NCBI GenBank assembly: GCA_030601305.1 | Contig: JAUVTV010000005.1 | Span: forward strand, 1-33,310 | Direction of reading: 5' to 3' | DNA length: 33,310 nucleotides | From: Candidatus Eiseniibacteriota bacterium | Lineage (GTDB): Bacteria > Eisenbacteria > RBG-16-71-46 > CAIMUX01 > WJJG01 | In this document: positions 159 to 30,744 of the stretch, piece by piece | How the letters are laid out: each line of letters begins with the position of its first letter | How positions within the stretch are numbered: the stretch's first letter is position 1 | The notes under the pieces: model-generated | Database searches by the model: none | Told to the model about the DNA's origin: nothing | The model's input: only the letters and a program-made list of their open reading frames with translations | Position numbers and translations under genes: made by a program

Positions 159-2096
159 ATGCCGCGGACGAAAAAGGAGCAGAGCCCCTACGGGGTGGAT
201 GAATGGGGATCCGGGTACTTCGCCATCGGTGGCAGCGGCCACCTGCTGGTGCGGCCGTTTCGCGATCAGCGCTCCATCGATCTGGTCGAGATCGTGCGCC
301 GCTGCGCCGCGGAAGGGCTGACGCCCCCACTCCTCGTGCGCTTCCCACAGATCCTGCACACCCGGCTGCAGCACCTCTATGCCTGCTTCGACCGGGCCAT
401 GGAGGAGTTCGACTATGCCGGCCACTACCGGAGCATCTTCCCGCTGAAGGTGAACCCGATGCGGGCGCCCGTCGCGAGCTTGATCCGTGCCGGGCGACCG
501 GGGGCCTTCGGCCTGGAGGTGGGCAGCAAGGGTGAGCTTGCCATCGCCCTTGCCCAGCGGTTGCCCGCGGGCTCCTGGATCTGCATCAACGGTTTCAAGG
601 ATCGCCGCATCGTCGAGATGGCCACCGCCGCGGCGGGCCGCGATCCTGAAGTGGTCGCCGTCATCGAACGCCTCAGCGAGATCCCGCTGCTCGTCGCCGA
701 GGCCCGGCGTCAGGGGCGCTGTCCACTCCTCGGGGTGCGCTGCCGGCTCAACAGCCGCGGCAGCGGCCGCTGGGAGGCGTCCGGCGGCGAGACCTCCAAG
801 TTCGGTCTGGGGGCCTCCGAGCTTCTCTACGCGGTGGAGATGTTGGAGCGCGAACAGCTGCTGCCTCGGCTGCAAGTGCTCCACTACCACATCGGCTCGC
901 AGATCACCAGCGTGCGGCGCATCAAAGACGCGGTGAAAGAGGCCGCTCGCATCTACGCCAAGCTGCAGCAGCGCGGGGTCCCGCTCACCACCCTCAACGT
1001 CGGTGGCGGACTGGGCATCGACTACGACGGCAGCAGGACCCCGTCGGATAGCAGTGTCAACTACACCCCGCAGGAGTTCGCCAACAACGTGGTCTATACG
1101 GTGCGGGAGGTCTGTGACGAGGAGGAGGTGCCGCTGCCTGCGCTGGTTTCCGAGAGCGGCCGGGCACTGGCTGCCCACCACTCCCTGCTGATCACCAACT
1201 GCGAAAGCCGCGAAAGCGACGTCCCGATCCACTTCACCCCCCGCGAGGTGTCCTCGCCCCCCGAGCCGCGGTCTCCGAAGTCGCCCGATGACGAGGAACC
1301 CACCCAGATCGCGGAGATGGCCGCCATCGCGGCGGAGATCTCGGTGAAGAACTTCCGCGAGTACTATCACGACGCCGTGGTCACCCGCGGGGAGATCCTC
1401 ACCCTCTTCGATCTCGGCTACCTGACCCTCGAACAGCGGGCGGTGGCCGAACAGCACTTCTACGACATCTGTCGCCAGGCACTCGCCTTCGCCCGCCAGA
1501 CGCGCTTCGTCTCCGACGAATTTCGGGTGCTCGAGAAGGCTTTTCGCACCAAGTACGTCACGAACTTCAGCGTCTTCCGCTCGGTCCCCGATGCCTGGGC
1601 CGTCAAGCAGCTCTTCCCCATATTGCCGATCCACCGGCTGCACGAGATCCCTACGGAGAAGGGGATCCTGGTGGATCTGACGTGCGACTCCGACGGCGTG
1701 ATCGACACCTTCGTGGACGTGCGCGACGTGAAGGAGGTGCTCGAACTCCACGCCGGAACCAACGGTCGTCCCTACCTCTTGGCGATCTGTCTTCTGGGCG
1801 CGTACCAGGAGATCATGGGGGATCACCACAACCTCTTCGGAAAGCCGGCCGAGGTGGTCGCCCGCCTCGACGGCACCGAGCTCAGCATCGAGATCATCTC
1901 ACACGGCGACAGCATCGGTGAGATGGTGCGTCTGGCGGGCTACGATCTCGAGGAGATGAAGACGACCCTCGGCGAGGTGTTCGGTGGCCCGGGATCCACG
2001 CCTCGGAACCCGGGGATCCTCGAGTGCTGGGAGGAGCTCCGGGCGGGTGACTCCTACCTCGTAGGGGACCGGGAGGCATTCGAGAGCGTCGACTAG
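159..2096 (+). CDS. speA: Biosynthetic arginine decarboxylase (PLP, SpeA-type)
   Basis: ORF 48..2096; ATG at 159 follows AAAGGAGG. Motifs YRSIFPLKVN (PLP lysine), HYHIGSQI, NVGGGLGIDYDG, VSESGRA, FGGPGSTP. Confidence 0.93.
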   Translation: MPRTKKEQSPYGVDEWGSGYFAIGGSGHLLVRPFRDQRSIDLVEIVRRCAAEGLTPPLLVRFPQILHTRLQHLYACFDRAMEEFDYAGHYRSIFPLKVNPMRAPVASLIRAGRPGAFGLEVGSKGELAIALAQRLPAGSWICINGFKDRRIVEMATAAAGRDPEVVAVIERLSEIPLLVAEARRQGRCPLLGVRCRLNSRGSGRWEASGGETSKFGLGASELLYAVEMLEREQLLPRLQVLHYHIGSQITSVRRIKDAVKEAARIYAKLQQRGVPLTTLNVGGGLGIDYDGSRTPSDSSVNYTPQEFANNVVYTVREVCDEEEVPLPALVSESGRALAAHHSLLITNCESRESDVPIHFTPREVSSPPEPRSPKSPDDEEPTQIAEMAAIAAEISVKNFREYYHDAVVTRGEILTLFDLGYLTLEQRAVAEQHFYDICRQALAFARQTRFVSDEFRVLEKAFRTKYVTNFSVFRSVPDAWAVKQLFPILPIHRLHEIPTEKGILVDLTCDSDGVIDTFVDVRDVKEVLELHAGTNGRPYLLAICLLGAYQEIMGDHHNLFGKPAEVVARLDGTELSIEIISHGDSIGEMVRLAGYDLEEMKTTLGEVFGGPGSTPRNPGILECWEELRAGDSYLVGDREAFESVD

Positions 2097-2132
2097 AAGC
2101 AGCCCGTGGCCGAAGTCATCTGCGCCGTCTAC
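2093..2132 (+). repeat. Dispersed 36-bp palindromic element, copy 1 (left arm and loop kept, right arm degenerate)
   Basis: CTAGAAGCAGCCCGTGGCCGAAGTCATCTGCGCCGTC; begins at the speA stop codon. Confidence 0.6.
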
Positions 2133-2286: not shown

Positions 2287-3870
2287 ATGCGCACCTGTGC
2301 AATTCTGGCGGCCACCCTCTGTATCCTCGCACCCGTCGGTGCGACCGGACCCGACCCCGCAGGAACCCTCGTCTGCAGCGCGCCTCGCGAGGCCACGATC
2401 CTCTGGCAACGGCACATGGACGACGCGATCTACACCTCCACGGGGCTCAGCGCCCCGGCGGAGATGGTCTGCGCGGGAACCGAGTTCGACCTGCCGACGC
2501 ATGTCGAGGCAACGCCCCTCTTCGGTGACGGCACGGCGGACTGGACACACGACGGCCATGAGCTCTACGTGGACGCCTCCCGCCACGGCGAGGTGCTGGC
2601 CGCGGTGGACTTCAACGCCGCCGACTCGACGGCGACGATCATGGAGTGGCGACCCGAGGCGGCCACGCCTCTCTGGTCCCACGTCGTGCATCCCTGCCGC
2701 TCGCTGGTCTACCAGGGTTGGGCCAGCCGCAAGCCGATCCAGGTGTCCGACGACGGCTCGACCATCGCCGCCGCCATCGTCATGTACATGCCCGCGGGAC
2801 AGACCGGCCGGCTTTACGTTTTCGACGCCGGCAACGGGACGCCCGACGTCAGCTACGACTTCCCCACCGGCAACGTCGTGGCAACGGCGATCTCGGCCGG
2901 CGGCGACTACGTTGCGATGGCCGGATGGCCGAACGTGTACGTGTACGATCGCGCCGCCCATGCGCTGCGCTGGAGCGGCCCGATCTATAGCGGCAACGAT
3001 GCCCTCGCGATTTCCGGCGACGGACGCTACCTCGCCTGGGGGTGGACCACCTTCTACCTCCGGGAGTGGAACGGCGCGACCTACGACCTGCTCTGGTCGC
3101 ACAGCCCCGGCGGCGGAGCCTACGTCGGCCAGTGTGCGCTGACGACCGATGAAAGCACGCTGGCCGTCTCCTGGGACAACGGCAGCAGCGTGCCCAACGA
3201 GATCTCCGTCGAACTCTACGCGTTGCCGGCGCTGGATCTACTGTGGGGCTACGACTACGTGCCCGCGCCCGCGCGAGGCGCCCGCGATCACGTCGACATG
3301 CCGTCGCAGATGGTCTTCGCCCCCGACGGCGAGCATCTGGCCGTTGCCTCGTGGGGCGGGACCTTCCCCGAGATCCACGTCTTCGAGCGCGCGGCGCCTC
3401 AACCGATCTTCACCCTCGACACACCCGGATCGATCTTCGACGTGGACATCGCCGGCACCCCGGGCGGCAACGTCTACGTCACAGCGTGCGGAAAGGCGGT
3501 GCACGCCGGCCAAGGCGGCCGGGGCGGCGACCTCTACGCCATCGAGATTCCCGGATCTGCCGCGGGACCCGGTGACCACGACGCCCCACATCTCGCCTTC
3601 GGACTCGAATCGATCGCCCCGAATCCGGTGATCGCCGGTACGCACGTCGTCTACCGCTTGGCCGGTCCCGGACCCCTGCGCTTGACGGTCCACGACGCGG
3701 CGGGCCGCCTCGTGCGACACCTCGCCTCGGGATTCGGGCGCGAGGGGCTCCATCGCGTGGCCTGGAGGGGGACCGATGACGCTGGCACCGCGCTCCCCAC
3801 AGGCATCTACCTCGTCAAGCTGGAGTCATCCGGACGGCACAGTCAAGCCAAGGCCCTGCTCGCCCGATAG
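2287..3870 (+). CDS. Secreted beta-propeller/WD-like repeat protein with C-terminal FlgD-Ig-like sorting domain
   Basis: ATG 2287 after CCGGAGGACGAATC; signal peptide MRTCAILAATLCILAPVGATG; repeated blade-like segments; C-terminus LTVHDAAGRLVRHLASG..GLHRVAWRGTDDAGTALPTGIYLVKLES. Confidence 0.75.
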   Translation: MRTCAILAATLCILAPVGATGPDPAGTLVCSAPREATILWQRHMDDAIYTSTGLSAPAEMVCAGTEFDLPTHVEATPLFGDGTADWTHDGHELYVDASRHGEVLAAVDFNAADSTATIMEWRPEAATPLWSHVVHPCRSLVYQGWASRKPIQVSDDGSTIAAAIVMYMPAGQTGRLYVFDAGNGTPDVSYDFPTGNVVATAISAGGDYVAMAGWPNVYVYDRAAHALRWSGPIYSGNDALAISGDGRYLAWGWTTFYLREWNGATYDLLWSHSPGGGAYVGQCALTTDESTLAVSWDNGSSVPNEISVELYALPALDLLWGYDYVPAPARGARDHVDMPSQMVFAPDGEHLAVASWGGTFPEIHVFERAAPQPIFTLDTPGSIFDVDIAGTPGGNVYVTACGKAVHAGQGGRGGDLYAIEIPGSAAGPGDHDAPHLAFGLESIAPNPVIAGTHVVYRLAGPGPLRLTVHDAAGRLVRHLASGFGREGLHRVAWRGTDDAGTALPTGIYLVKLESSGRHSQAKALLAR

Positions 3871-6671: not shown

Positions 6672-6707
6672 CTAGCAGCCCGTGGCAGAAGTCATCCGGG
6701 CTGCTAG
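6672..6707 (+). repeat. Dispersed 36-bp palindromic element, copy 2 (best copy, perfect 11-bp stem)
   Basis: CTAGCAGCCCG-TGGCAGAAGTCATC-CGGGCTGCTAG; overlaps the stop codon of the FN3-repeat gene (6704-6706). Confidence 0.9.
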
Positions 6708-9700
6708 GGACGCCTCACGTAGACCTTGGTCAGCTTCGCGCCTGTGCCGGCCTCCAGCTTGAGGAAGTAGAGCCCCGGTGCGACTCGGGCGCCGTGGTCG
6801 TTGCGCGTGTCCCAGGTGAGCGTGACCTCGCCGCCAGGCGGGAAGGCCTCGTCGATCCAGCGACGCACGAGCTGACCGGAAGCACTGAAGATGCGCGCCT
6901 TGACGGACACACGTCCCGAGGCATCCGGAGGCAGGACTAGCTGGAAGCGCCCTTCGTCCTCGATGGGGTGCGGAAACGGGCCGCGCAGATCGAGTGCCTC
7001 GCTCAGCACCGCGACCTCGGCCCCCCAGGCGCTCTCGTTGCCCGCGCGGTCGACGGCCGAGAGCGAGACGAAGTAATTCCGCGTCCGGTCGGGCAGCTCG
7101 AACGACCAGTTCGTCTCCTGGACGACCACGTCCGTGAGCCGGTCGCGCGACGTACGGTCCGCGCTGCGTCCGTAGACATGGTAGCCCAGGACGTCGTCTT
7201 CCAGGGAGCGCAGCCAGGTCAGGGTGACGTCATGGCGGTCCGCGTTCACGTCTGCCAGCGGCGCATTCGGCGGGGCCGGAGGTTCTCGGTCCTCCTCTCC
7301 CTCCGCGGGCGTGCTTACGGTCACCACGTTGGAGAGATCCGACCAGCGGCCGGCCTCGTCCGCGCTGCGCAAGGCCACCCAGTAGGTCTCGTCGCTCTCG
7401 AGCGCGCTCACGCGCAGATGCTCGCGGTTGCCGGCGGCGGCGGGTGTCGGCGGGGCGGGCAGCTTGGGCAGTTCCGCCCACGCCTCGGGTGTGATCTCCT
7501 CCCGAACGCAGGCGATCTCGTAGGCCGCGGCGGAGCCGCCCGCGTCGTGCGCCGCGGGCGCGGTCCACGTGATGTCGATCCAGGCGGCGCCGATGCCGGT
7601 GACGATGAGATCCAGCACCGCATCGGGCGGCGGCGGTGACGCAGGCGTCTCCACGTGGAGCGTGTTCGAGAGCTCGGAGCCGTTGCCGGCGGCATCCGAG
7701 GTCCGCATGGCGACCCCATAGGCAGAGGCCGGGTCGAGCCCGGTCAGCAGGTAGCTCTCAGCCTCCCCCGCGGGCGCGGGTGCGGGGAGGTCGTCGAGAT
7801 CGAGAAGCGCATCGTCCCAGTTCTCGTCCGCCACCGTCTCGTCCGCGAGCGCGCCCAGGGCGTACGCTCCTGCCTGCCCACTCGTGCCGTCATCCCCGAC
7901 TGCGGTCCACGTCAGAAGGACCCACGACTCCCCGACCTCGGCGGCCGTCAGATCCTCGACGCGCGCGGGAGGGATCGTGTCGGGCAGCGCATCCGTCGTG
8001 AAGACCAGCGGCGGGTGCAGGGGCGAGAGCAGGTCGGCATCGTCGATGGCCCGCACCACCACGTTGTAGCCCTCTGCCGGTTGGAGACCCTCCAGCCGGT
8101 AGGCGACCGCGACGCCGGCCGAGTCGGGCTCCGGAAGCCCGGCCGTGACCTTCTCCGCCGCCTCCCAGGCCTCTTCGTCGGTGAGCTCGGTACCCGCGTC
8201 GAAACCGAGCACGAAGGCGCTGGCGATCCCCTCATCGCCGTCGTCACCCGGACAGGACCAGGTGAGGCGGGCCCACGTCGTCCCGTGGTCTGCGAGCGTC
8301 AGGTCCCCGATGGCGGCCGGGGCAAGACTGTCCGGGTCCCCGCCGGGACCATCGCCAGGGTCGTCCTCTGGAAGGGTCTGCGCGAGGAGCGGCGCACCCA
8401 GACTTGAGAGGTTGTCCGCCTCGTCGCGCGCCCGCAGGCTGAGTCCGTAATGGCGGTCGGGCTCGAGACCGCTCAGATGGAACGTCTGCTCCGTCCCCGC
8501 CACCTCCGGCGTGGGGAGCTCATCGGTGACGAGAGCGGCAGACTGCCAGTCGCTTTCCTCCGCGATCACGCGTCCCTCGAGGACGCCCAGGATGTAGCTC
8601 GCCGCCGTGCCGCTGGCGCCATCGTCCCCGGGCGCCGTCCACGCAAGATCAAACCCGTCGCTGAAGGCCGTCAGCGGCACCAGGTCGTGGATGGGGGACG
8701 GCGGCGTGAGATCGGGTGGTCCGAGCGTCTCGACGAGCAGCGGCACGCTCAGGGGGGCGCGGTTCTCGGCCTCGTCCACTGCCCGCAGGCAGATGCCGTA
8801 GGCGGTCGCCGGCTGCAATCCCTCGAGGTCGAACGACTGCGCGGTTCCCGCGTCGGCCGGTTCCGGGAGCCCCTCCGTGACCTGCTCTGCGGCTTCCCAA
8901 TCGGCTTCCGTCTCGATCGCCTCTCCGACCCGGAAGCGCAGGAGGTAGGTCGCCGCGCGGCCCGTGTCGCCGTCGTCTCCGGGGGCGTGCCAGGAGAGTT
9001 CGATCGCGGTTTGCGCAGCGGTTCCCGCCAGATCCTCGACGGCTCCCGGGGGCAGGGTGTCGGGTGCGGGATGGGTGGTGGCGACCAGTGGCGGCCCCAG
9101 GGAGGAGAGGTTGTCGGCATCGTCGAACGCCCGCAATGCGAGACCGTACGACGTCTCGGCCGTAAGGTCCTCAAGCCGGAAGGCCTGCGGCGTGCCCGCT
9201 GCGGCCGGCGCCGGCAGTCCGCTCGTGATCCGGGTCGCCGCTTCCCAATCGACTTCCCCTACGATCGCCTCCCCCTCGCGGTAGCCGAGGATGTAGCCGC
9301 TCGCGGTCCCCTCGTCACCGTCGTCGCCGGGAGAGGTCCAGGCGAGGTCCAGCGCGGTGACCAGGGCTTCGGCCTCGAGATCGTCGATCGCGCCGGGAGG
9401 CACCGTGTCGGGTGGCGCAGGCGTGGCCACGAGCAGCGGATTGGAGAGGTCCGACATCCGGCTCTCATCGTCGACGACGCGCACGCAGATCCCGTAGCTC
9501 GTCTCCGGTTCGAGCGTGGAGAGCAGGAAGGTCTCGGCGGTCCCCGGCGGGCCCGGCTCGGGCAGTCCCACGGCCACGGCCGTGGCCTCCTGCCAGTCGC
9601 CCTCCGTCGTGATCGCGCGCCCCTCGAGGTAGCGCAACTGGTAGTGATCGGCCAACCCCTCGTGGCCGTCATCGCCGGTTGCCGTCCATCCGAGTGCGGC

Positions 9701-11452
9701 CCAGGTCGGCCCCACGTCGGTCGCCTCCAGATCATCCACCGCCGCCGGAGGCGCACCGTCCGGCGCGGCTTGGGTCGTTGTCGACACGACGTTCGAGACG
9801 TGCGGCTCCAACCGGCCGTAGATCAAGTTCTTCGCCGCGAAGTAGTAGGTCGTCTCCGGATCGAGCCCGCCCACGATGTAGGAGATTTCCTGTCCGGGAA
9901 GGCCGACCGCACCCCCCGCGGGCGCTTCCGCGCACGTGTCCCAGTTCTCCGCGGTGATGGGATACGTGGCGTACCGGACGTAGGTCGAATCGATCCAATG
10001 CTCGCCCACCGGCACGGTCCAGCCGAGGGCGACAGCGTCGAACCCGGTGCCCGTCACGGCGATGTCGTCCAAGGTCATCCAGAACGCGAAGCGTGTGTTC
10101 TGTGGTGATACGCCTCCCACGTAGTGCTCGTACGGATTGACCTCGATGAATCCGTTCTCGAAGAGTCGTACGTAGAGCGTGTCGACGCCCATGACCTCCT
10201 TGCCGAAGTCCCCGAGCGGATCTCCGAACTCCCAATCGAATTCCTCCAGCCAGTAGAGATCGTGCTGGTTGACCGTCGTGGTGAAGTACCCGTCACCGAG
10301 CATCGCGGTGCCGATGCCCCAACGCTGCATGCGGCGCGTGAACGAAACGTCCCAGTCGGGTTCCTCCCACACCTGGATGAGCGTCATGTCCCACCCCTCG
10401 CGCTCGTCGACGCCAAAGGGGTGCATGACGCGCTCGGCGAACTCGTAGCCATCACCGAGGAGCTCCCCACTGCCGAGGCGGCGGCCGTAGAAGTAGCTCC
10501 ACCAGGTCGACGGCGCGTGATCGACGCGATCGGGGCGCCAGTGCTCCAGCTTCAGGCCGTGCATGTCCCAGGCCCATTCCGGATTCATATACTTCCCGCC
10601 GCGGTTGATGCGGAGGATCAGGTCCGGCTCCAGCACGATGCGCAGTCGCTCGTAGAAGTACTCGTTCACCTCGCGGTAGAGGTTCGAAAGCGGATCGTCC
10701 CAGCCACCGTCCCAGCAGTTCGTGTCGATCCCCTCGGCCACCCCGTCGCGATTCGGGTCCGCGTACATGTAGAGATCGCCCTGACAGCAGGCGGGGCAGT
10801 CGACCATGAACTCCCACTCGAAACCCTGGTAGGCTGACGAGCTCCAACCCCACGGTTCGAGGTCGGGAGAGTGATAGGCGACCTGGGGCATGGCGACATT
10901 GACGTACCACTCGGGGTAGGTCATCCCCCGCGACGTGCCGTAGGTGCCCTCGGGGCAATGGCGTGTCCAGTTCGCCGCGTAGCCACCCCACTCGTCGATA
11001 CGCTCGCCGTAGATGTCGTAGAGATACCAGTCGTTCTGTTCGGCGTAGAACTGCGCGAGGCGCGTGATGCTCCAGCTCGTGTCGGCGTGCCACCACGTGT
11101 CGCCCTCGTTCCAACGCACGAAGTTCTGCGGCATGGTGCGGAAGAACAGGATCTGGTGCGGATTGCGCTCCCGCAACTCAGCGATCATGTCGGGGGGATC
11201 CTTACAGCTGACCTGGTCGTACCAAGAGAGGGTCTCCCTCTCTGCCTCGGTGAACTGCCGGATGCGGCTGGTGTGGATCATGGTCTTGGGGTAGCCGGGA
11301 GGTCCGCCGCGGGAGGCGTCGGCGCGGGTCATAGCGAGAACGGTCAGCACGATGAGCGTGCCGAGGACGGCAGCCCGAAACCCGGCGCCGTGCGCGGGGC
11401 GTGCGGCGTACCGTCTCCGGAGAGGTCTTCTCGTCGCTGGTGTTTGAGCCAT
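6704..11452 (-). CDS. Giant secreted protein: N-terminal putative glycoside-hydrolase-like domain, about nine fibronectin type III modules, C-terminal FlgD-Ig-like sorting domain
   Basis: Single ORF (caller start 11485 is GTG; ATG at 11452 precedes the hydrophobic signal segment). Repeated PP.AI.DL...L.W..PGDDG.EG......Y.LR....Y.L..RA.DDA.N.S modules; C-terminus GQLVRRWIDE..GGEVTLTWDTRNDHGARVAPGLYFLKLEAG. Confidence 0.8.
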   Translation of the reverse strand: MAQTPATRRPLRRRYAARPAHGAGFRAAVLGTLIVLTVLAMTRADASRGGPPGYPKTMIHTSRIRQFTEAERETLSWYDQVSCKDPPDMIAELRERNPHQILFFRTMPQNFVRWNEGDTWWHADTSWSITRLAQFYAEQNDWYLYDIYGERIDEWGGYAANWTRHCPEGTYGTSRGMTYPEWYVNVAMPQVAYHSPDLEPWGWSSSAYQGFEWEFMVDCPACCQGDLYMYADPNRDGVAEGIDTNCWDGGWDDPLSNLYREVNEYFYERLRIVLEPDLILRINRGGKYMNPEWAWDMHGLKLEHWRPDRVDHAPSTWWSYFYGRRLGSGELLGDGYEFAERVMHPFGVDEREGWDMTLIQVWEEPDWDVSFTRRMQRWGIGTAMLGDGYFTTTVNQHDLYWLEEFDWEFGDPLGDFGKEVMGVDTLYVRLFENGFIEVNPYEHYVGGVSPQNTRFAFWMTLDDIAVTGTGFDAVALGWTVPVGEHWIDSTYVRYATYPITAENWDTCAEAPAGGAVGLPGQEISYIVGGLDPETTYYFAAKNLIYGRLEPHVSNVVSTTTQAAPDGAPPAAVDDLEATDVGPTWAALGWTATGDDGHEGLADHYQLRYLEGRAITTEGDWQEATAVAVGLPEPGPPGTAETFLLSTLEPETSYGICVRVVDDESRMSDLSNPLLVATPAPPDTVPPGAIDDLEAEALVTALDLAWTSPGDDGDEGTASGYILGYREGEAIVGEVDWEAATRITSGLPAPAAAGTPQAFRLEDLTAETSYGLALRAFDDADNLSSLGPPLVATTHPAPDTLPPGAVEDLAGTAAQTAIELSWHAPGDDGDTGRAATYLLRFRVGEAIETEADWEAAEQVTEGLPEPADAGTAQSFDLEGLQPATAYGICLRAVDEAENRAPLSVPLLVETLGPPDLTPPSPIHDLVPLTAFSDGFDLAWTAPGDDGASGTAASYILGVLEGRVIAEESDWQSAALVTDELPTPEVAGTEQTFHLSGLEPDRHYGLSLRARDEADNLSSLGAPLLAQTLPEDDPGDGPGGDPDSLAPAAIGDLTLADHGTTWARLTWSCPGDDGDEGIASAFVLGFDAGTELTDEEAWEAAEKVTAGLPEPDSAGVAVAYRLEGLQPAEGYNVVVRAIDDADLLSPLHPPLVFTTDALPDTIPPARVEDLTAAEVGESWVLLTWTAVGDDGTSGQAGAYALGALADETVADENWDDALLDLDDLPAPAPAGEAESYLLTGLDPASAYGVAMRTSDAAGNGSELSNTLHVETPASPPPPDAVLDLIVTGIGAAWIDITWTAPAAHDAGGSAAAYEIACVREEITPEAWAELPKLPAPPTPAAAGNREHLRVSALESDETYWVALRSADEAGRWSDLSNVVTVSTPAEGEEDREPPAPPNAPLADVNADRHDVTLTWLRSLEDDVLGYHVYGRSADRTSRDRLTDVVVQETNWSFELPDRTRNYFVSLSAVDRAGNESAWGAEVAVLSEALDLRGPFPHPIEDEGRFQLVLPPDASGRVSVKARIFSASGQLVRRWIDEAFPPGGEVTLTWDTRNDHGARVAPGLYFLKLEAGTGAKLTKVYVRRP
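7250..9760 (-). repeat. Protein-level tandem FN3 module array within the large ORF
   Basis: Six modules carry GDDG ([A/S/C]PGDDG, ATGDDG, AVGDDG) and a seventh has APAAHDAGG at the same place. Confidence 0.8.
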
Positions 11453-15936: not shown

Positions 15937-17007
15937 ATGGGCAAGACAGGCAAGCACGTCCACGTGGTGGGAACGGGAACGATCGGCGAACCTCTGATCG
16001 GGCTGCTCCTCGACTTCCGCAAGGACCTCGGAATCGATGAGATCAGCTTCAACAAGAAGCAGGCCCTCACCTACGACCGCCCCAAGGTCAAGAACCTGAT
16101 CCGCCGCGGGGCACGGCTGGTCGCCGACCAGGAGATGATTCCCCAGTTCGAGGATCTGGGCATGAAGATCACCTACGAGTACAACGAGGTGCTCGCGAAA
16201 GCCGACGTGATCATCGACTGCACTCCGGCCGGCAACCGCCACAAGGAGAACCAGTACCAACGCATCGAGGAGACCACCGCCGGTTTCGTCGCCCAAGGCA
16301 GCGAGTTCGGCTTCGGCAAGATGTATGCGCGCGGCATCAACGACGAGGCCCTCGAGCGGGGCAAGGACAAGTACATCCACGTGGTCTCCTGCAACACGCA
16401 CAACCTGGCCGTGCTCATCGACACCCTGGCCCTGCAGGACAAGGACGCCGGCAATCTGGTCGAGGGACGCTTCGTGCTCATCCGGCGCGCCAACGACATC
16501 AGTCAGGACAGCAAATTCATCCCGGCACCGCAGGCCGGCAAACACGACGACGAGCGCTTTGGTACGCACCACGCCCGCGATGCGTACCATCTGTTCAACA
16601 CGCTGGGGCACGAGCTGAACCTGTTCAGCTCGACGATGAAGGTGAACACCCAGTACATGCACTCGATGTGGTTCAGCATTCGGTTGCGTGAGAGGATCTC
16701 GCTGCCGCAGGTCATTTCCCGGCTGCGCGAGAACCAGCGCGTCGCGCTGACCGAGAAGCGTTCGGCCAACTCGATCTTCTCGTTCGGGCGCGACCAGGGC
16801 CACTACGGGCGGCTGCTCAGCCAGACGGTCGTCTCGGTGCCCACCCTGCACGTACGCGGCGACCACGAGGTGGTCGGCTTCACCTTCACGCCGCAGGACG
16901 GCAACTCGCTGCTCTCGTCCGTGGCCATCACCGCGTGGTTCCTCTATCCGGACGACTACGTCGAGCGGTTGCAGCCGTTGCGGGAGTACTTCTTCGAGGA
17001 GATTTGA
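15937..17007 (+). CDS. Type II (archaeal-type) glyceraldehyde-3-phosphate dehydrogenase-like protein
   Basis: VHVVGTGTIGEPL nucleotide-binding motif; VIIDCTPAG; VVSCNTHNLAVLIDTL (catalytic-Cys motif); IRRANDIS..FIPAP...GTHHARD; TMKVNTQYMHS. Confidence 0.7.
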   Translation: MGKTGKHVHVVGTGTIGEPLIGLLLDFRKDLGIDEISFNKKQALTYDRPKVKNLIRRGARLVADQEMIPQFEDLGMKITYEYNEVLAKADVIIDCTPAGNRHKENQYQRIEETTAGFVAQGSEFGFGKMYARGINDEALERGKDKYIHVVSCNTHNLAVLIDTLALQDKDAGNLVEGRFVLIRRANDISQDSKFIPAPQAGKHDDERFGTHHARDAYHLFNTLGHELNLFSSTMKVNTQYMHSMWFSIRLRERISLPQVISRLRENQRVALTEKRSANSIFSFGRDQGHYGRLLSQTVVSVPTLHVRGDHEVVGFTFTPQDGNSLLSSVAITAWFLYPDDYVERLQPLREYFFEEI

Positions 17008-17073
17008 TTCGCCGGCGGGGAAGCCGTCTGGCTCACGCGCCCGGGACCTGTGCTTCCCGGGCGTGGTCGCAGG

Positions 17074-17109
17074 CTAGAGGTCCGTGGCAGAAGTCATCCG
17101 GGCGGCTAA
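17074..17109 (+). repeat. Dispersed 36-bp palindromic element, copy 3
   Basis: CTAGAGGTCCG-TGGCAGAAGTCATC-CGGGCGGCTAA; loop identical to copy 2; overlaps the folE stop codon (17106-17108). Confidence 0.85.
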
Positions 17110-17669
17110 CGCACGTGTTTCTTCTTGAGCAGGTCTAGGAACTCGCTGCGCGTCGCCCGATCGTCGCGGAAATCCCCCAGGACGGCACTCGTCGTCATGT
17201 AGGCGTTCTGCCGCTCTACGCCGCGCATGGCCATGCAGAGGTGGAACGCCTCGAGTACCACGGCGACGCCCCGCGCCCGCACGGCGTTCTGCAGGCTCTC
17301 GGCGATTTGATTGGTGAGGCGCTCCTGAAGCTGCAGGCGGCGCGAGAAGACCTCGACCAGGCGCGGGATCTTGCTGAGACCAATCAAGCGTCCATCCGGG
17401 ATATAGGCCACGTGGGCCTTGCCGAAAAAGGGCAACAGATGGTGTTCACACAGGCTGTAGAAGTCGATGTCCTTGACGATCACCATCTGGTCGTACGGCT
17501 CATCGTAGATCGCATCGCCGAGCACCCCGGCAGGGTCCTCGCCGTAGCCGCGGGTCAGAAAGCGCAGCGCATCTTCCACGCGCTCGGGCGTACGGCGCAA
17601 TCCACGACGGGACGGATCCTCACCCAGTTCCCGTAGCAGCGTGTGGATGACCTTGCGGATCTCACCCAT
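17106..17669 (-). CDS. folE: GTP cyclohydrolase I
   Basis: [73 protein letters not shown] 17669 overlaps the upstream gene by 8 nt. Confidence 0.95.
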
Positions 17670-18696
17670 GATCGGACTCCTTCCCGCCCGCGCCATCTCC
17701 CGCGGACAGACCGCTGCGTGCCACGCCGAGCACTTCACTGATGGTCTCCTTCAAGGGGCGTTGCAGCGTGACGCCGGACGCGGTCAAGCGACCGCCGCCG
17801 CCGAGCTGCTCGGCGAGACGACTCACGTCGGGCGTCCCCTTGGAGCGGAAGGTCACCTTCACACCGCCGCCGGGCAGTTCGCGAAAGAGGACGGCGAGAT
17901 CAACGCCCCGCACGGTCATCAAGTGGTCGATGATGCCGTCGGCATCGACGGCCGTGGTTCCCGTGCGTTGGAACATGTCGCCGGTCAAGTAGGTCCAGGC
18001 GATGCGTCCCTGGGCCTCGCTCTTGACGCGACTGAGCGCGGCGGTCAGCAACTCGACGCGCGGGAACGATTCGTTCTCGAAGAGCCGCGCCGCGGTCTCG
18101 ATGTGGCTTGCGCCGCGTCGAATGAGCTCCGCCGCGATCAGGACGGTCTCGTCGCGCGTGTTCCGGAAGCGGAAACCACCGGTGTCGAAGAGTATCGAGG
18201 CGTACAGGGACGCCGCCATCGGCGTGTCGATCTCCGCACCCGTGGCCAGGAAATAGCGGTACAGCACCTCGCCCGTCGCGCTGGCTTGCGGATCGATGAG
18301 CGCCGCATCACCGATCACCTCCTCGTTATGGTGGTGGTCAAAAAGCAACTTGGGCGCCGGCGAGCGCGCGAGGATCTTCCCCAGGGCACCCATGTAGTCC
18401 CAGTGACTGACGTCGAGGAGAATCACCAGATCGTGCGCGGGCAACTGGTCGGGCCCCTCGATCCACGCCTCGTGCGGCAGACCGGAGAGGTCGATGAGGA
18501 AACGGTAGATCTCCTGGACCGGCGTCGGATTGCAGACCTGAACCTGCTTGCCCAGCTGGAGGAGATGGCGGGCCAGCGCGGCCTCGGAGCCAACCGAATC
18601 CGCCTCCGGGAAGATGTGCGAGGCCAGCAAGACCCGCTCGGCCGCGGCAATCTGCGCGCGGGCGCGTTCACAGAATTCGATGAGGCTCATCGCCAT
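17662..18696 (-). CDS. DHH/DHHA1 phosphoesterase, NrnA-like (oligoribonuclease/pAp phosphatase family)
   Basis: [53 protein letters not shown]. Confidence 0.88.
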
Positions 18697-18713
18697 CGCA
18701 GCGGGTCGCTCCG

Positions 18714-20534
18714 CTAGTGCAGCAGGAGCTGCAGGCTGGCGTCCAGATCCCGCTGCATGAGCGGGCGAGCGGCCTCTTCGAGCTCCTGGGCACACGTGCG
18801 AATCTCCATCAGATCAGCGCCCTCGAGAACCTCTTCGAGCTCCTTGGCCTTCTTCGCGATCAGCTGCTTCTCGTCGCGAGTGATGATCCCGGCGCGCCGC
18901 CGGGAAAGCTCGCGGAGCGATTCGAGGACGAACCGCCCGCGGGCGCGAAGCTCCTCCCGCAAGGCCTCCTCGAACTCGGCCGCCTTCACCTTCGGCACGC
19001 TCTCGAGCGTCGCCCGGACGGCCGAGGAACTCAATCCGCGAATGGGCCGCAGTTCCAGGCCGAGTGGCTTCTGCTTGGTGGTTTCGAGAGCCGTCACCTC
19101 CAGGACACCGTCCTCGTCGACGGCGAAGCTTACCTCGATCGCCGGGAGCCCCGCCTTCATCGGCGGGATCTGGGAGAGCTCGATCCGGGCGAGCGGTGCC
19201 CAGTCGGAAGCCGCTTTCGCGAACAGCTGAATGGCCACGTCGGTCTGTCGCTCGAGGTAGGTCGTGAATACCTCGCGCTTCCCTCCGGGGATGACGGCGC
19301 CGCGCTTCAGGATCGGGCTCATCGAGCCCGCCTGCGCCTCCAATCCCAAGCTGCAGGGCAGCACATCCAGAACCAACGGCTCCGATTGAGCGTGATCCAG
19401 GAGTCGTGCGCGGGCCAGCGCCCCCAGCACGGCGGCCTCCTCGGGATCCGGCACGTCGCCGGCACTCAGCCCGAAGCAGGTCTCGAGATGTTCGCGCAGT
19501 GCGGGGATGCGCGTCAGCCCCCCGGCGAGAACGAGGGCGTCCAGGTCGCCCTTGAGGAGGCCGGCATCGGTCAACAACTGCTCGCAGACGCGCGATGCCT
19601 CGGTCCTGAGGCTCTCGCACCAACGATCGAGGTCCTCATTCGTGTAGGTCTGTCGAACCGCTTCCTTGCCACCGACAATCGGCAGCTGCAGTTCCGCATG
19701 GCCGCGCTCGCAGATGCCGTGCTTGGCCTTCTCCGCGGCGACGAGCACATAGCGTGCGATGTGGGACTCATTCTCGAGCTGCCCGCGCTTCTCCTTCACC
19801 TTGCCCAGGAAATCGCCGGCCAGCTGCAGATCGATCTGGTCGCCGCCGACCTCCGCCGAGCCGGCGGTCGAGAGAACGCGGAGAAACCCATCCTGGAGCT
19901 CGACCAGGGCAGCGCTCAAGTAACCGGCACCCCAGGTGCAAACGGCCGCGCGCCCGCTGTGCCCGGCGGCGAGCCACGCCTCGGCCACGGCGATGGGTTC
20001 GTCGATTAGCCGGACCCGCTCCAGGCCGGCCATGCGGGCGGCCACGCGGAGTGTCTGCCGGTCGAACGGCGTGAAACAGGTCGGTACGGTGACGACGCCC
20101 GCGGTCACGGGTCGCTCGAGCGCCAGCTCCGCCGAACGGCGCAGGAACGCGAGGAAGAGCGCGATCAGCTCGATGGCCGGGCGCTCCCGCTCCCCGACAT
20201 CGACCTGCAGCATGGTCTGCACGTCGGAATTGACCGGATGGGGAAAGAACGGTCCGCGCGGGGTCACGGTGCCCGGGCCGGCGGTGAGCAGAGACCTCAG
20301 CGAGCGGAGCGTGTGCTGCGGATAGAGCGCCTGCCGATCGCGGGCCGCCGCGCCCGCCAGAATCCCGCCCCCTCCGGAAAGCGCGATCACCGACGGTATG
20401 CGTGCATCGCCGGCCAGGTCCGTGACGAAGGCATGCCCCTCACCGCGGGCGTAGGCGATGCGACTGGTGCCGGTCCCGAGATCGAAGGCCACGAAGTCCG
20501 GCTCGGTTGACTGCCTTGTGGGTTGTGCCGCCAA
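18714..20534 (-). CDS. Hsp70-family chaperone, HscA/DnaK-like, with degenerate ATPase motifs
   Basis: VAFDLGTGTSRIAY, TVPTCFTPFDRQTLRVAARMAGLERVRLIDEP, VLAGGLTRIPALREHL, DVLPCSLGLEAQAG, IPPMKAGLPAIEVSFAVDEDGVLEVTA. Confidence 0.87.
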   Translation of the reverse strand: MAAQPTRQSTEPDFVAFDLGTGTSRIAYARGEGHAFVTDLAGDARIPSVIALSGGGGILAGAAARDRQALYPQHTLRSLRSLLTAGPGTVTPRGPFFPHPVNSDVQTMLQVDVGERERPAIELIALFLAFLRRSAELALERPVTAGVVTVPTCFTPFDRQTLRVAARMAGLERVRLIDEPIAVAEAWLAAGHSGRAAVCTWGAGYLSAALVELQDGFLRVLSTAGSAEVGGDQIDLQLAGDFLGKVKEKRGQLENESHIARYVLVAAEKAKHGICERGHAELQLPIVGGKEAVRQTYTNEDLDRWCESLRTEASRVCEQLLTDAGLLKGDLDALVLAGGLTRIPALREHLETCFGLSAGDVPDPEEAAVLGALARARLLDHAQSEPLVLDVLPCSLGLEAQAGSMSPILKRGAVIPGGKREVFTTYLERQTDVAIQLFAKAASDWAPLARIELSQIPPMKAGLPAIEVSFAVDEDGVLEVTALETTKQKPLGLELRPIRGLSSSAVRATLESVPKVKAAEFEEALREELRARGRFVLESLRELSRRRAGIITRDEKQLIAKKAKELEEVLEGADLMEIRTCAQELEEAARPLMQRDLDASLQLLLH

Positions 20535-20576
20535 GTAGGACTCCTGTGACGTGGCGCCGGGGGCGCGCAGATCATC

Positions 20577-21248
20577 TCAGCTGCCCGGCCATTGCCTTCC
20601 GGTCCGCACCCTGCGCGTCAACGTCTCGAGATACTGCCGCTCGCCAAGCCACCGGATGGCCTGTGTGTACCAGCCCTCCGAGACCCGCGGCCACTCGCCC
20701 CTCGAACTCGCGACCGCATCGTCCCACTCGTTGAACAATCGGCCGAGTGCGGCTTTTGATTCCTGCTCAGCCTTGTCGGTCTGCACTTCCAGCGAAGCCA
20801 GATGATCCTGCTGGGCTTCCCAGGCCTCGCGATTGCCCTGCACTACCGCCGTCTCCACGGCGGCCAGCACCCGCCCGATGATCTGTGCCGATCCCTGCAG
20901 CCCCTCGGGCACCGTGTGCGTCGGCTCCTCGAAGCGACCGCTGGCACTGAGCGCATAGCGCAGTCGTCCGACGCGGTTCTTGAGCGCGCGGTGCGCATCG
21001 TTGAGCGTGCGCATCGCGCCGCGAGCCGCCTGCAGGACGCGCTCGTCACGGTGGGCCTGGAAGAGGTCCGGGTGACACCGCCGGGCGAGATCCTGATACG
21101 TGGCGTGCAGTTCCGCGGCCTCCCACGTGAGGCGCGGCGGGATACCGAAGACGGCAAAGGGACCGACGTCCTCGACGGGTTGCGGCATGCCACAGCGGCC
21201 GCAGACCAACGGCCCCTCCAGGGCACCACTGCAGTTCCAGCAGCTCAC
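20577..21248 (-). CDS. HscB-like J-domain co-chaperone with N-terminal CxxC...CxxC zinc finger
   Basis: CWNCSGALEGPLVCGRCGMPQPV then FAVFGIPPRLTWEAAELHATYQDLARRCHPDLFQ (HPD motif). Proposed GTG start 21248 (VSCWNC); the ORF caller extends upstream to 21515. Confidence 0.75.
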   Translation of the reverse strand: MSCWNCSGALEGPLVCGRCGMPQPVEDVGPFAVFGIPPRLTWEAAELHATYQDLARRCHPDLFQAHRDERVLQAARGAMRTLNDAHRALKNRVGRLRYALSASGRFEEPTHTVPEGLQGSAQIIGRVLAAVETAVVQGNREAWEAQQDHLASLEVQTDKAEQESKAALGRLFNEWDDAVASSRGEWPRVSEGWYTQAIRWLGERQYLETLTRRVRTGRQWPGS

Positions 21249-21513
21249 CGGTTCAGCGCCGCTCCTCTTCCCAGGGTGATGGCCGGGCCCTTGCCCAGGC
21301 TGCGCCAGCCGCCTCGCGGAGCCTCGGTTCACCGCCGTAGACCCCAACCTTCTCTGTATCTTGCGGCCAAGAGTAGAACCCGCCCATGCTAGGTTGTCGC
21401 ACCGGCGGCTGTCAATCTGCATCCGAGCTACGGGGCAAGGAAGCCACTCAGCTGCCGATATATGGTAGGCGTACCCCCGGGGCCGCGGCCCCCCCAAGGA
21501 AAGGCACCCCATC

Positions 21514-24789: not shown

Positions 24790-24869
24790 GAGTACCTCCG
24801 GGGCCGGTGAAGGGCGGGCACCTGCCGCGCTCGGCAGCACGCCCCCCCGGGAACGACATCGGACGCCTA

Positions 24870-24899
24870 AGCGTAGTGAGCCACGGGCCGCGATGTCAA
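24870..24899 (-). promoter_or_regulatory. Candidate sigma70-type promoter for mtaB-miaB
   Basis: Minus strand: TTGACA (24899-24894), 18-nt spacer, TACGCT (24875-24870). Confidence 0.35.
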
Positions 24900-25049
24900 C
24901 TCGCGCCGCCCCTCTTCGACTGGACAGAGATCCAACATCTATGCTACTAGAAACGATTAGGCTCGAGAACTCGGAGGTGCCACCGAGTGGCTTCCGGGTC
25001 GGTCGGCCACGCAGTGCCGCGCCCTTCGCGGCCGAAGGGGGAACCGTAG

Positions 25050-25931: not shown

Positions 25932-25948
25932 AGGCCCGTCGAGGAGGC

Positions 25949-25984
25949 CTGGAGGCCCGTAGGAGAAGCCATCCGGGCTGCTGG
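25949..25984 (+). repeat. Dispersed 36-bp palindromic element, copy 4, with a partial 5' duplication at 25928-25944
   Basis: CTGGAGGCCCG-TAGGAGAAGCCATC-CGGGCTGCTGG; preceded by CTAGAGGCCCGTCGAGG overlapping the LysR stop. Confidence 0.7.
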
Positions 25985-26048
25985 ACCACTCGCCCGCCGG
26001 TCCGATGCTCCGGCATTTCGCGAGGCGCGATGTGGAGCGAAGACGGGT

Positions 26049-26196: not shown

Positions 26197-26394
26197 CGGT
26201 TTGACGATCCCCACATTTGGTACTACGAGTGAGATCCGCCCCAAGATGTTGGGGTTGGTCCCATGCGAGCCAGCCGCTAAGCTCTTCGGACGCGGGGTGG
26301 GCTCTCAAGAGAGATCCACTCTAGGGAGGGATTTGCTGGCTCTGGGGGACCCGACGACGACGGGGGAGTCGGGGAAGCGGCAGGAACGGCGGAT

Positions 26395-26475: not shown

Positions 26476-29235
26476 ATGGAGGAGAGGGCTCAGGCGCAGG
26501 GCGGTCAGAGCACGCAGCAGGTTGGCCAAACGTCCAATGAGAAGCAGGAGATGGCCGCCGTTCGCGGACTGAAGATCCCCAGATTCTTCACCACCCCCGG
26601 GAGACACCCCTTCGACTGCGTCGACTGGGAAGTGCGCACGGCCAACCTGACCAACGACAAGGGCGAGGTCATCTTCGAGCAGGAGGGAATCGAGGTCCCG
26701 CGCTCCTGGTCGCAGATGGCCACCAACGTCGTTGCCTCCAAGTACCTCTACGGCGATCCCGCGAGCCAAGCGCGCGAATCCTCCGTGCGTCAGCTGCTGA
26801 CCCGCGTGACGTCGACGATCTCGCGTTGGGGAACCGAGCTCGGCTACTTCGCCTCCCCCGAGGACGCCACCTCTTTCGAGGCGGAGCTCACCCACCTGCT
26901 GCTGCACCAGCAGGCGTCCTTCAACAGCCCGGTGTGGTTCAACATGGGCATCGAGGAGAAACCGCAGTGCTCGGCGTGCTTCATCAATTCCGTGGAAGAC
27001 ACCATGGAGTCCATCCTCCAACTCGCCCGGACCGAGGGAATGCTCTTCAAGTTCGGCTCCGGCACCGGCACGAACCTCTCTCCCCTGCGCTCATCGAAGG
27101 AGAAGCTCTCCACGGGCGGCACCGCCTCGGGACCGGTCTCCTTCATGCGCGGCTACGACGCCTTCGCCGGCGTGATCAAGTCTGGCGGCAAGACGCGCCG
27201 GGCGGCCAAGATGGTCATCCTCGACATCGATCACCCGGACATCGCGGACTTCATCCGCTCCAAGACCGAGGAGGAGCGCAAGGCGTGGGCGCTGATCGAC
27301 GCGGGCTACGACGGTTCCCTCAACGGCGAGGCCTACAGCTCGGTCTTCTACCAGAACTCGAACAACTCGGTGCGCGTCACCGACGAATTCATGCAGGCCG
27401 TGGAGAGCGACGGCCTCTGGCAGACGCGGGCGGTGACCACCGGTGAGCCGGTCGACACCTACCGGGCACGCGATCTGATGAAGATGATCACCCAATCGGC
27501 GTGGCACTGCGGCGATCCCGGCCTTCAGTTCCACACGACCATCAACCTGTGGCACACCTGCCCGAACACGGCGCCGATTCAGGCCAGCAATCCGTGCAGT
27601 GAGTACATGTTCCTCGACGATTCGGCCTGCAATCTGTCGTCGCTCAACCTGATGCAGTTCGCGGACGAGCAGTCCTCCTTCGACGTGGATGCGTTCCGGT
27701 CGGCCGTGGCGATCATGATCCTGGCGCAGGAGATCATCGTCGACAACGCCAGCTATCCGACCGAGCGCATCGGCCGCACGAGCTTCGACTACCGGCCGCT
27801 GGGCCTGGGGTACGCCAATCTGGGCACGATCCTGATGTCGCGCGGCGTGCCGTACGATTCGGATCGCGGGCGCGCATTCGCCGCGACCCTCACCGCGATC
27901 ATGGCCGGACAGGCCTACGCGACCAGTGCCGAGATCGCTCGGGTGGTCGGCCCCTTCAAGGGCTTCGCGAAGAACCGTGAGCCGATGACGGAGGTCATCC
28001 GCCGCCACCGCGATGCGATCGGCGGCATCAACCCCGATCACGTCCCCCAGCGCCTTCTCGCGACGGCGCTCAAGGTCTGGGACGAGGCCATCGAGAATGG
28101 CGGCCGGTGGGGCTACCGCAACGCCCAGGTCACCGTGCTCGCCCCCACCGGGACGATCGCCTTCATGATGGACTGTGACACGACGGGCATCGAACCGGAT
28201 CTGGCGCTCGTCAAGTACAAGAAGCTGGTCGGCGGCGGCCTGCTCAAGATCACCAATCGTGCGGTCGACAAGGCGCTCGCCCGCCTTGGCTATGGCGACG
28301 ACCAGATCCGCGACATCGTCGCGCATCTCGAGGAACAGGAAACGATCGAGGGCGCTCCGGGACTCAAGGACGAGCACCTGCCGATCTTCGACTGCGCGTT
28401 TCGCCCGCGCAACGGAGAGCGCTTCATCCACCACACGGGTCACATCCGCATGATGTCCGCCGTGCAGCCGTTCTTGTCGGGGGCGATCTCCAAGACAGTC
28501 AACGTCCCACATGACACGGACCCCGATGAGATCGCCGAGATCTACATGCAGGCCTGGAAGCGGCGTCTGAAGTCGGTCGCCACCTACCGCGACGGCTCGA
28601 AGCGCGTGCAGCCTCTCTCCACCAGCCGTGACAAGGACAAGGCAACGCAGGACGAAACCGCGGGCGCGCGGCAGCCGGTCCGTTCGCGCCTGACCGCCGA
28701 GCGCCATTCGATCACGCACAAGTTCGTCATCGGCGACCACGAGGGCTATCTGACGGTGGGCCTCTACCCGGACGGGCAACCCGGCGAGATCTTCCTGGTG
28801 ATGGCCAAGGAGGGGACGGTGGTTTCGGGGCTCTGCGACTGCTTCGCCACCGCCATTTCCATGGCATTGCAGTACGGCGTTCCGCTACGGGCTCTGGCGG
28901 ATAAGTTCGTCCACACCCGTTTCGAGCCCTCCGGGTTCACGCAACATCCGGAGATCCACTACGCAAAGAGCATCGCCGATTACATCTTCCGCTGGCTGAC
29001 GCTGAAGTTCTTGAAGGACGACGACGAGGAACCGGGGAACGCGGGAGACGACGTTTCGATCGGGCGCGGGCAGCGAACCGGCGCGATTGCACGCAGCGGT
29101 CTGCAGGACGAGCAGGGCGTCACGTTCGTTCGTGACGCCGACGCCCCACCCTGCCCGAACTGCGGTTCCTTCATGGCGCGCAACGGCGCCTGCTATCGCT
29201 GCATCAACTGCGGGGAGTCGGACGGCTGCTCCTAG
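26476..29235 (+). CDS. nrdJ: Vitamin B12-dependent (class II) ribonucleotide reductase
   Basis: ATG 26476 after GAGGAGG; FNSPVWFNMG, FKFGSGTGTNLSPLRSS, NPCSEYMFLDDSACNLSSLNL, VLAPTGTIAFMMDCDTTGIEPDLALVKYKKLVGGG, C-terminal zinc-finger-like CPNCGSFMARNGACYRCINCG. Confidence 0.95.
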   Translation: MEERAQAQGGQSTQQVGQTSNEKQEMAAVRGLKIPRFFTTPGRHPFDCVDWEVRTANLTNDKGEVIFEQEGIEVPRSWSQMATNVVASKYLYGDPASQARESSVRQLLTRVTSTISRWGTELGYFASPEDATSFEAELTHLLLHQQASFNSPVWFNMGIEEKPQCSACFINSVEDTMESILQLARTEGMLFKFGSGTGTNLSPLRSSKEKLSTGGTASGPVSFMRGYDAFAGVIKSGGKTRRAAKMVILDIDHPDIADFIRSKTEEERKAWALIDAGYDGSLNGEAYSSVFYQNSNNSVRVTDEFMQAVESDGLWQTRAVTTGEPVDTYRARDLMKMITQSAWHCGDPGLQFHTTINLWHTCPNTAPIQASNPCSEYMFLDDSACNLSSLNLMQFADEQSSFDVDAFRSAVAIMILAQEIIVDNASYPTERIGRTSFDYRPLGLGYANLGTILMSRGVPYDSDRGRAFAATLTAIMAGQAYATSAEIARVVGPFKGFAKNREPMTEVIRRHRDAIGGINPDHVPQRLLATALKVWDEAIENGGRWGYRNAQVTVLAPTGTIAFMMDCDTTGIEPDLALVKYKKLVGGGLLKITNRAVDKALARLGYGDDQIRDIVAHLEEQETIEGAPGLKDEHLPIFDCAFRPRNGERFIHHTGHIRMMSAVQPFLSGAISKTVNVPHDTDPDEIAEIYMQAWKRRLKSVATYRDGSKRVQPLSTSRDKDKATQDETAGARQPVRSRLTAERHSITHKFVIGDHEGYLTVGLYPDGQPGEIFLVMAKEGTVVSGLCDCFATAISMALQYGVPLRALADKFVHTRFEPSGFTQHPEIHYAKSIADYIFRWLTLKFLKDDDEEPGNAGDDVSIGRGQRTGAIARSGLQDEQGVTFVRDADAPPCPNCGSFMARNGACYRCINCGESDGCS

Positions 29236-29267
29236 CCGCCCGGATGACGTCTGCCACGGGCCTATCC
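29232..29267 (-). repeat. Dispersed 36-bp palindromic element, copy 5
   Basis: Minus-strand reading GGATAGGCCCG-TGGCAGACGTCATC-CGGGCGGCTAG; loop 13/14 identical to copy 2; overlaps the nrdJ stop. Confidence 0.82.
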
Positions 29268-29275
29268 GTCCCCCG

Positions 29276-29305
29276 AGCAGGTCGTTCATGAGTCGTCTGG
29301 GCTAG
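29276..29305 (+). repeat. Possible degenerate copy 6 of the palindromic element
   Basis: AGCAGGTCGTTCATGAGTCGTCTGGGCTAG; partial match, overlaps the stop codon of the next minus-strand gene. Confidence 0.4.
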
Positions 29306-30744
29306 CGCACCCAGACGAGGCTGCGCATGGCCGACGCCCCCGCGGCGGTGTGCAGGCGGAGCGCGTAGACCCCGGCCGGCACCTGGCGTCCGGCGCTATC
29401 CTCTCCCTGCCAGCTCACCTGATGGCGACCGGCGGGCAGCTGGCCCGCAACCAGATCGGTCACCTTGCGCCCCGCCGCGTCGAAAACCTCCAGCCAGACC
29501 TGCTGCGGCCGGGCCAACTGGAAGCGGACGTCCGCCCGCCCGTGGGCCGGATTGGGACCGGCGAGCAGCGCGATGCGCCCCTCGATCGTGGGTCCGGCCA
29601 ACGGTACGTCCGCTGCGGGCGGGAGACGCTCGTCCAGTCCCATGTAGACCAGGTAGCTGGTGACCCAGGTCTGATCCATGTCGTCGCTGTCCTCGGGACG
29701 CGCCGGGATGCCGCCGTCCAAGTCGCCGTCCTGGGCGCTCAGATAGTCGGTGAGATCCGAGTGCACACCGATATGGTAGGCATCCTCGAGGGCGGCGCCC
29801 GTCGCCCAGTGACCCAGCGCATACCAGCCGTTCCACGCGTTTTGGAAATCGCCGGGTGACGAGAAGACGTCCATGTAGTCCTTGTAGAGGGGCACCCAGG
29901 TGTCGATCTCCGCGGGGTGCGCACAGAAGTAGGATTCGAGAAGGCCCCACATCGTCGCGCCACCCGACATCGCCCAGGTCTCGTTGGCGAGCAGCGTCGG
30001 CTCGTCCTCGATCCAGACCTTGATCTTCTCCTCCGCCTGACGCACGGCCTCGGCGCGCCACTCGGCGTTGTTCTGGCGCATCCCCACGTAGTAGAGGTTG
30101 CCCATTGCCCAGGAGAGCACCGGCGGGTTCACGTACTGGTAGAAGCCCGACCCCGGCCGGCTGAGCGTGTGATACCGGAGGTACGACGCACATGAGTCGG
30201 CGTAGTCCTGGTATGTGTCGTCCCCGTAGATGTCGAGGTACTTCTGCGCCGCACGGACGGCCCAGCCGCAGTTGTACATCCGATAGTAGCCGTTGTACTC
30301 CGTGGAGCCGCCCTCCTCGAGGTACGCCGGGTAGTTCATGCAGTAGGTCCAGGCATCGAGAACGTTCTGGTCGTACCGGTTGTCCCCGGTGAGCTCGTAG
30401 TAGCGCGTCCAGACCCAGATCGCTTCCGACGTGTTGTCGGTCTGGATGATGCCCGGCAGATGCTCGCCTTCGCGCATGCCTCCGAACTCCGGGTCGCCGG
30501 GGATGTCGACCTGCCAGATGCTGAGGAACTCGGCGGCGAGACCGAACATCGCGAGATCGTCTCGCGTATCCCCTACCGCGTTCGGCAGATCCGCCCAGGG
30601 ATGTGTGTCCTGCGCGGCGGTGCGGCCGACTTGCCACGCCTCGGCCTCCGCCGGTCCCCAGTAGGGAGAGGCCTCCGCCACCGGGACCCAAGAGACGACC
30701 AGCCCGAGCATGACCACTGGGATCCAGACCTGGAGCGCTTTCAT
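29302..30744 (-). CDS. Secreted protein, probable alpha/alpha-toroid (glycoside-hydrolase/lyase-like) domain with C-terminal FlgD-Ig-like sorting domain
   Basis: Signal peptide MKALQVWIPVVMLGLVVSWVPVAEA; Trp/Tyr-rich helical body; C-terminus LEVFDAAGRKVTDLVAGQLPAGRHQVSWQGEDSAGRQVPAGVYALRL. Confidence 0.7.
   Translation of the reverse strand: MKALQVWIPVVMLGLVVSWVPVAEASPYWGPAEAEAWQVGRTAAQDTHPWADLPNAVGDTRDDLAMFGLAAEFLSIWQVDIPGDPEFGGMREGEHLPGIIQTDNTSEAIWVWTRYYELTGDNRYDQNVLDAWTYCMNYPAYLEEGGSTEYNGYYRMYNCGWAVRAAQKYLDIYGDDTYQDYADSCASYLRYHTLSRPGSGFYQYVNPPVLSWAMGNLYYVGMRQNNAEWRAEAVRQAEEKIKVWIEDEPTLLANETWAMSGGATMWGLLESYFCAHPAEIDTWVPLYKDYMDVFSSPGDFQNAWNGWYALGHWATGAALEDAYHIGVHSDLTDYLSAQDGDLDGGIPARPEDSDDMDQTWVTSYLVYMGLDERLPPAADVPLAGPTIEGRIALLAGPNPAHGRADVRFQLARPQQVWLEVFDAAGRKVTDLVAGQLPAGRHQVSWQGEDSAGRQVPAGVYALRLHTAAGASAMRSLVWVR

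Follow-up and report, generated by a model that had tools for sequence, protein, structure and literature searches.

The window, by which we mean the whole stretch of 33,310 nucleotides analysed here, belongs to a 2.24-Mb Candidatus Eisenbacteria MAG that is 69% complete. Five copies of a palindromic 36-mer lie in it at or close to the ends of genes, at the positions where an earlier note had placed them (5 matches compared to 0.00 in shuffles), and one of them is fused to the end of a second repeat, MITE B:

2093..2131, plus strand: copy 1, a degenerate 36-mer, the left CTAG of which (2093-2096) contains the TAG stop of a plus-strand gene ending at 2096
6672..6707, plus strand: copy 2, a perfect 36-mer with an 11-bp stem and a 14-nt loop
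6704-6707: right CTAG of copy 2, containing the stop of the minus-strand gene 6704-11332
17074..17109, plus strand: copy 3, with a right flank CTAA (17106-17109) that contains the TAG stop of the minus-strand folE-like gene 17106-17669
25949..25984, plus strand: copy 4, degenerate and with CTGG flanks, starting 17 bp past the stop (25931) of the plus-strand gene 25050-25931; an apparent second partial left end (CTAGAGGCCCGT) stands ahead of it
29232..29267, minus strand: copy 5, inverted, the CTAG of which (29232-29235) contains the native TAG stop of nrdJ (26452-29235)
29255..29306, minus strand: MITE B end fused to copy 5, with IS1380-type ends CCCGGACTATTCATGA; its terminal CTAG (29302-29305) contains the stop of the minus-strand gene 29302-30744

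The anatomy of copy 2 is exactly as the earlier note had described it. Its placing of all copies at stop codons is approximately correct for the window, as the stop falls exactly in the terminal CTAG or CTAA of copies 1, 2, 3 and 5 and shortly before copy 4. What had been counted as a likely sixth copy (29276-29305) is part of the MITE B end and thus of a different repeat. At copy 5 the nrdJ product of the window ends in ...CGESDGCS. Because the NrdJ proteins of 11 relatives stop at the equivalent position and lack the element there, the stop of nrdJ is native and does not result from truncation.

A search of the whole MAG for further copies, which had been proposed on the basis of the window, gave 117 copies with the 19-mer TGGCAGAAGTCATCCGGGC as query and up to three mismatches allowed, compared to 1 in the reversed control. 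With the arms fixed and the loop left free, 65 copies were recovered against 1 in the control, and every copy listed from this arm-only search has the one 14-nt loop family; no alternative loop families were found beneath the same arms. Neither the 14-nt loop nor its length can therefore be an artefact of the search, as the same loop is recovered when it is left free. The 36-mer is absent as an element from 46 further Eisenbacteria genomes, where the few pattern matches lack the arms. Pattern scans elsewhere matched no viral contig and returned one true copy in addition to chance coding matches. This genuine copy lies at 3215-3250 of JAUWTE010000241.1 (L097), a contig of cold-seep type that had been assigned to Acidobacteriota bacterium CSMAG_2572; the contig may have been misbinned and belong to the present lineage, or the host range is possibly broader.

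The gene context of the copies was read from stretches around them that sample ~0.52 Mb, with gene calls on 520 kb coming from a simple codon-usage finder rather than a standard annotator. In 61 of the 110 copies inspected, in either orientation, the TAG at one or both ends of the element is exactly the stop codon of a gene (37 left, 32 right, 8 on both sides), and 88 of the 110 have a gene stop within ~60 bp. The elements point either way relative to the gene, as they had been seen to do in the window, and their orientation is random (29 versus 24). CTAG itself is rare in the sampled genome, with 228 sites outside the elements against 1601 expected, a ~7-fold under-representation, and 79 of these 228 are stop codons. 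The stops outside the elements in the 0.52 Mb sampled comprise 176 TAG, 130 TGA and 30 TAA codons. TAG as the commonest stop in a genome of 67% GC is unusual for bacteria. Classified by position, 59 elements are at a stop, 26 near one and 13 far from one, compared to 76, 18 and 66 of the spare CTAG sites. As the elements are more 3'-biased than the spare sites, selection against other insertions is also needed, and the association with stop codons stems largely from the CTAG target plus this selection.

The footprint of an insertion can be read at convergent gene pairs. Pairs without a copy have a modal overlap of 4 bp (-4; 7 of 32), which is the CTAG common to two TAG stops, and pairs with a copy have a modal gap of +28 bp (8 of 33), so that the shift of 32 bp is as expected if 28 bp had been inserted into CTAG and 4 bp duplicated. 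The two flanks are not equivalent. On the left (n=110) there are 50 CTAG and 6 GTAG, and on the right 38 CTAG and 24 CGAG; where the flank is not a stop, the counts of CGAG and CTAG are 20 and 9 on the right and 3 and 18 on the left (p = 2e-4). Copies with CGAG on the right tend to have CTG as their internal triplet (p = 0.001; p = 0.026 when copies that keep some tail are excluded). The asymmetry of the flanks weakens the simple view that mobile 36-mers duplicate their target symmetrically. Flanks that are not stops retain CTAG in 30 of 73 cases on the left and 14 of 78 on the right, a decay that far exceeds the 7% of the core and for which CTAG avoidance may account. The three nucleotides adjoining CTAG are variable, and left and right agree only weakly in them.

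One explanation is that the 36-mer is a functional element of the gene 3' end and is under selection as a bidirectional terminator without a T-run, as an mRNA stabiliser or as a protein-binding site, a transposon origin being possible but secondary. This would fit the 3' bias, which is strong and above that of spare CTAG sites, the better preservation of the core than of the non-stop flanks, and the RNA fold of copy 2 at -24.2 kcal/mol. The pattern of substitutions argues against it. The loop had been described as more conserved than the stem, and this holds for the outer arms, which diverge by 26.6%, but not for the inner stem, where the divergence (8.7%, in copies selected by loop) nearly equals that of the loop (6.7%, in copies selected by arms). 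The inner stem has 83 one-sided changes, 60 broken pairs and 0 compensatory changes, and it pairs no more than expected from shuffles; in the outer arms, pairing is slightly above that of shuffles (p = 0.0015). As RNA, copies 3 and 4 fold little better than shuffles, and the 36-mer has no match in Rfam. Reading the sequence after each window copy confirmed that there is no T-run, so the GC stem followed by a T-run that defines an intrinsic terminator is not found at the window copies, and copies 3-5 are not among the terminator-like sites of 16900-33310. In addition, orientation is random, the repeat is lineage-specific and relatives do without it at nrdJ. A functional 3'-end element is accordingly improbable in our view. 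The RNA-structure reading was rejected on the inner stem without covariation, the random orientation and the lack of an Rfam match, and the 36-mer is probably not a regulatory RNA. The earlier suggestion of a 3'-end element that binds protein or RNA finds no support either, given the same orientation, the same want of compensatory changes and a loop that is the inside of a transposon's left end. The copies are probably not regulatory, despite their appearance, and we infer that the 36-mer has no present function.

The earlier note had also suggested a REP/BIME-like selfish element. The 36-mer resembles the GTAG REPs and BIMEs associated with RAYT in size, palindromic form, copy number (>100), location at 3' ends, lineage specificity and mosaic copies. 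Such short-palindrome REP families have been described (PMC3733652, PMC2817692), and the P. mendocina family GTAGCCCGGATGCAATCCGGG is superficially alike. The spread of the 36-mer by a RAYT (Y1) transposase is nevertheless very improbable. GTAG REPs carry their head, GTAG (GTRG), at a single foot of the palindrome, but the 36-mer has CTAG on both sides, with GTAG limited to the few left flanks counted above; the palindrome of GTAG REPs is kept by complementary changes, which are lacking here against the 83 one-sided ones; and the parent is an element with terminal inverted repeats (TIRs) and without a rayt gene. The Y1 (RAYT/TnpA-REP) transposase that the suggestion called for was found neither in the 69% of the genome that is assembled nor in four family relatives. 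The REP/RAYT reading was rejected because this search gave no Y1 transposase and because of the wrong tag, and by the tests made the 36-mer is not a REP. The selfish, mobile-DNA part of the suggestion is supported by the existence of the TIR-bearing parent.

This parent, which we call MITE C, is a non-coding element of ~165 bp with the ends CAGCCCGTGGCAGAAGTnnTCCG, present in three full copies in the genome. Its left end is the 36-mer sequence and its right end the inverted relative of it. The terminal inverted repeats, CAGCCCGTGGCAGAAGTCATCCG on the left and CAGCCCGTGGCAGAAGTGCTCCG (reversed) on the right, enclose no ORF, and in this the three full copies correspond to a MITE of a DDE-type IS. 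Directly past the loop, inside the left end, lies CGGGCTGCGAG, which matches the right terminus CGGGCTG-CTAG at 10 of 11 positions; full-length MITE C thus carries the direct repeats at the ends of the deletion that characterise nearly precise excision. The full copies are flanked by TTAG/CTAG, CTGG/CTAG and TTAG/CTGG. There are 3 full-length parents versus ~95 minimal copies. Only about three minimal copies have the right-end loop, for which the matching repeat is missing, and partial deletions that retain some of the tail occur at L047, L077 and L081. As for a cognate transposase, the assembled genome (69% complete) has no DDE_Tnp_1 or DDE_Tnp_1_4 match. The repeat is real, dense, lineage-specific and of transposon origin.

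We consider it rather probable that the 36-mer is what remains of MITE C after reduction to a minimum, MITE C being a non-autonomous DNA transposon with CTAG as its target. MITE C would insert at CTAG and, presumably by itself, duplicate the tetranucleotide. Because CTAG contains the stop codon TAG, an insertion there would leave the gene whole on either strand, and selection would remove most insertions outside stop codons. A deletion between CGGGCTGCGAG and the right terminus with its CTAG, perhaps helped by hairpin formation, would then leave CTAG-CAGCCCGTGGCAGAAGTCATC-CGGGCTG-C(T/G)AG, which is a scar of 36 bp. The position of the crossover would set CTAG or CGAG as the right flank, and the constant 14-nt loop would simply come from within the left inverted repeat. 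Since insertions at CTAG spare the genes, the stubs would pile up at gene ends. In favour of this reading are the copy numbers with their controls, the full-length parents, the stops in terminal TAGs, the shift at convergent gene pairs, the relatives that lack the element at nrdJ, the excess of CGAG on the right with its tie to CTG, the single CTAG between tandem copies, and the duplications and deleted hairpins of MITE B. Against it count the decay of CTAG at flanks that are not stops, the small number of parents compared to minimal copies, the variable nucleotides adjoining CTAG, and the lack of a cognate transposase among the matches in the assembled 69%.

Such a deletion has a counterpart in the nearly precise excision of Tn10-type elements, a copy-choice process that acts on short repeats (PMC12524634). 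The remnants of that process are, like those here, stubs of palindromic ends between duplicated target, and the direct repeats at the ends of the deletion are there as in MITE C. The present case differs in that the stubs, ~95 in number, are dispersed, uniform in form and derived from a MITE of ~165 bp, that the target sequence belongs to the repeat, and that the deletion is one that we infer.

The alternative closest to this is that the 28-bp palindrome is itself mobile under some transposase, moving into CTAG with a 4-bp duplication after originating once from MITE C. The high copy number, the single form with its single loop, the +32 shift at convergent gene pairs and the small number of full-length parents all speak for it. 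We nonetheless regard it as doubtful, as a DDE transposon of only 28 bp would be very short, as neither the asymmetric CGAG on the right nor its association with CTG would be expected, and as neither a Y1 nor a DDE_Tnp_1 or DDE_Tnp_1_4 transposase was found in the assembled genome. It is slightly less likely still that the palindrome alone is a mobile element, maybe one of the smallest known, whose insertion at CTAG gives the genes on both strands their stop back; if it were, a mobile 28-bp palindrome would be spreading through gene ends and leaving the genes unharmed.

The CTAG target itself has precedents, as IS5 in E. coli prefers CTAG (PMC5493358). MITE C shares with IS5 and with the IS1380-type MITE B (target YTAR/CTAG) the inverted ends, the lack of an ORF, the CTAG target and, probably, the 4-bp duplication. 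Its ends match neither of them, and unlike in IS5 or IS1380-type MITEs most of its copies are cut to 36 bp. As the ends differ, IS1380 was rejected as direct parent of the 36-mer and retained for MITE B only. Searches of the literature on IS1380 with CTAG, on MITEs of Eisenbacteria and on MITE slippage gave no match.

MITE B (~175 bp) is found in 15 of 47 Eisenbacteria genomes, with the most end matches (189) in genome G040, and one of its ends adjoins a transposase of Pfam DDE_Tnp_1_4, IS1380 type (L141). The 4-bp target duplications of MITE B in the phylum are CTAG/CTAG, CTAA/CTAA (three times) and TTAG/TTAG. There are also internally deleted MITE B hairpins of 26-99 bp, two of which sit between identical duplicated tetranucleotides. 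The three full copies of MITE B in this genome stand at a CTAG-like flank of 36-mers, and in five fused copies, including copy 5 of the window, MITE B is joined to the 36-mer at a common AGGCCC stretch.

Short palindromes at the 3' ends of genes are routinely taken for REPs, terminators or RNA elements. The remnant reading of the 36-mer offers a concrete alternative, namely a transposon the target of which contains a stop codon and the own end of which carries a direct repeat for trimming. If it is true, both the association with stop codons and the conserved loop would arise from insertion and deletion and not from function, and similar stubs, such as the MITE B hairpins across Eisenbacteria, would need to be read again.

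Some copies have neighbours of their own. Tandem copies have one CTAG in common (L008, L078). At the tandem pair of L008 (~1494-1562) a dapF-like gene continues across one copy in a different frame, by which its product gains the C-terminal residues LEAPDKSHPGL out of the element. The copies at L055:229 and L059:~3994 (contigs C146 and C162) have nearly identical flanks on both sides and are therefore part of a larger duplicated segment, and their left flank, GTCCGGG-CTAG, resembles the end of another MITE.
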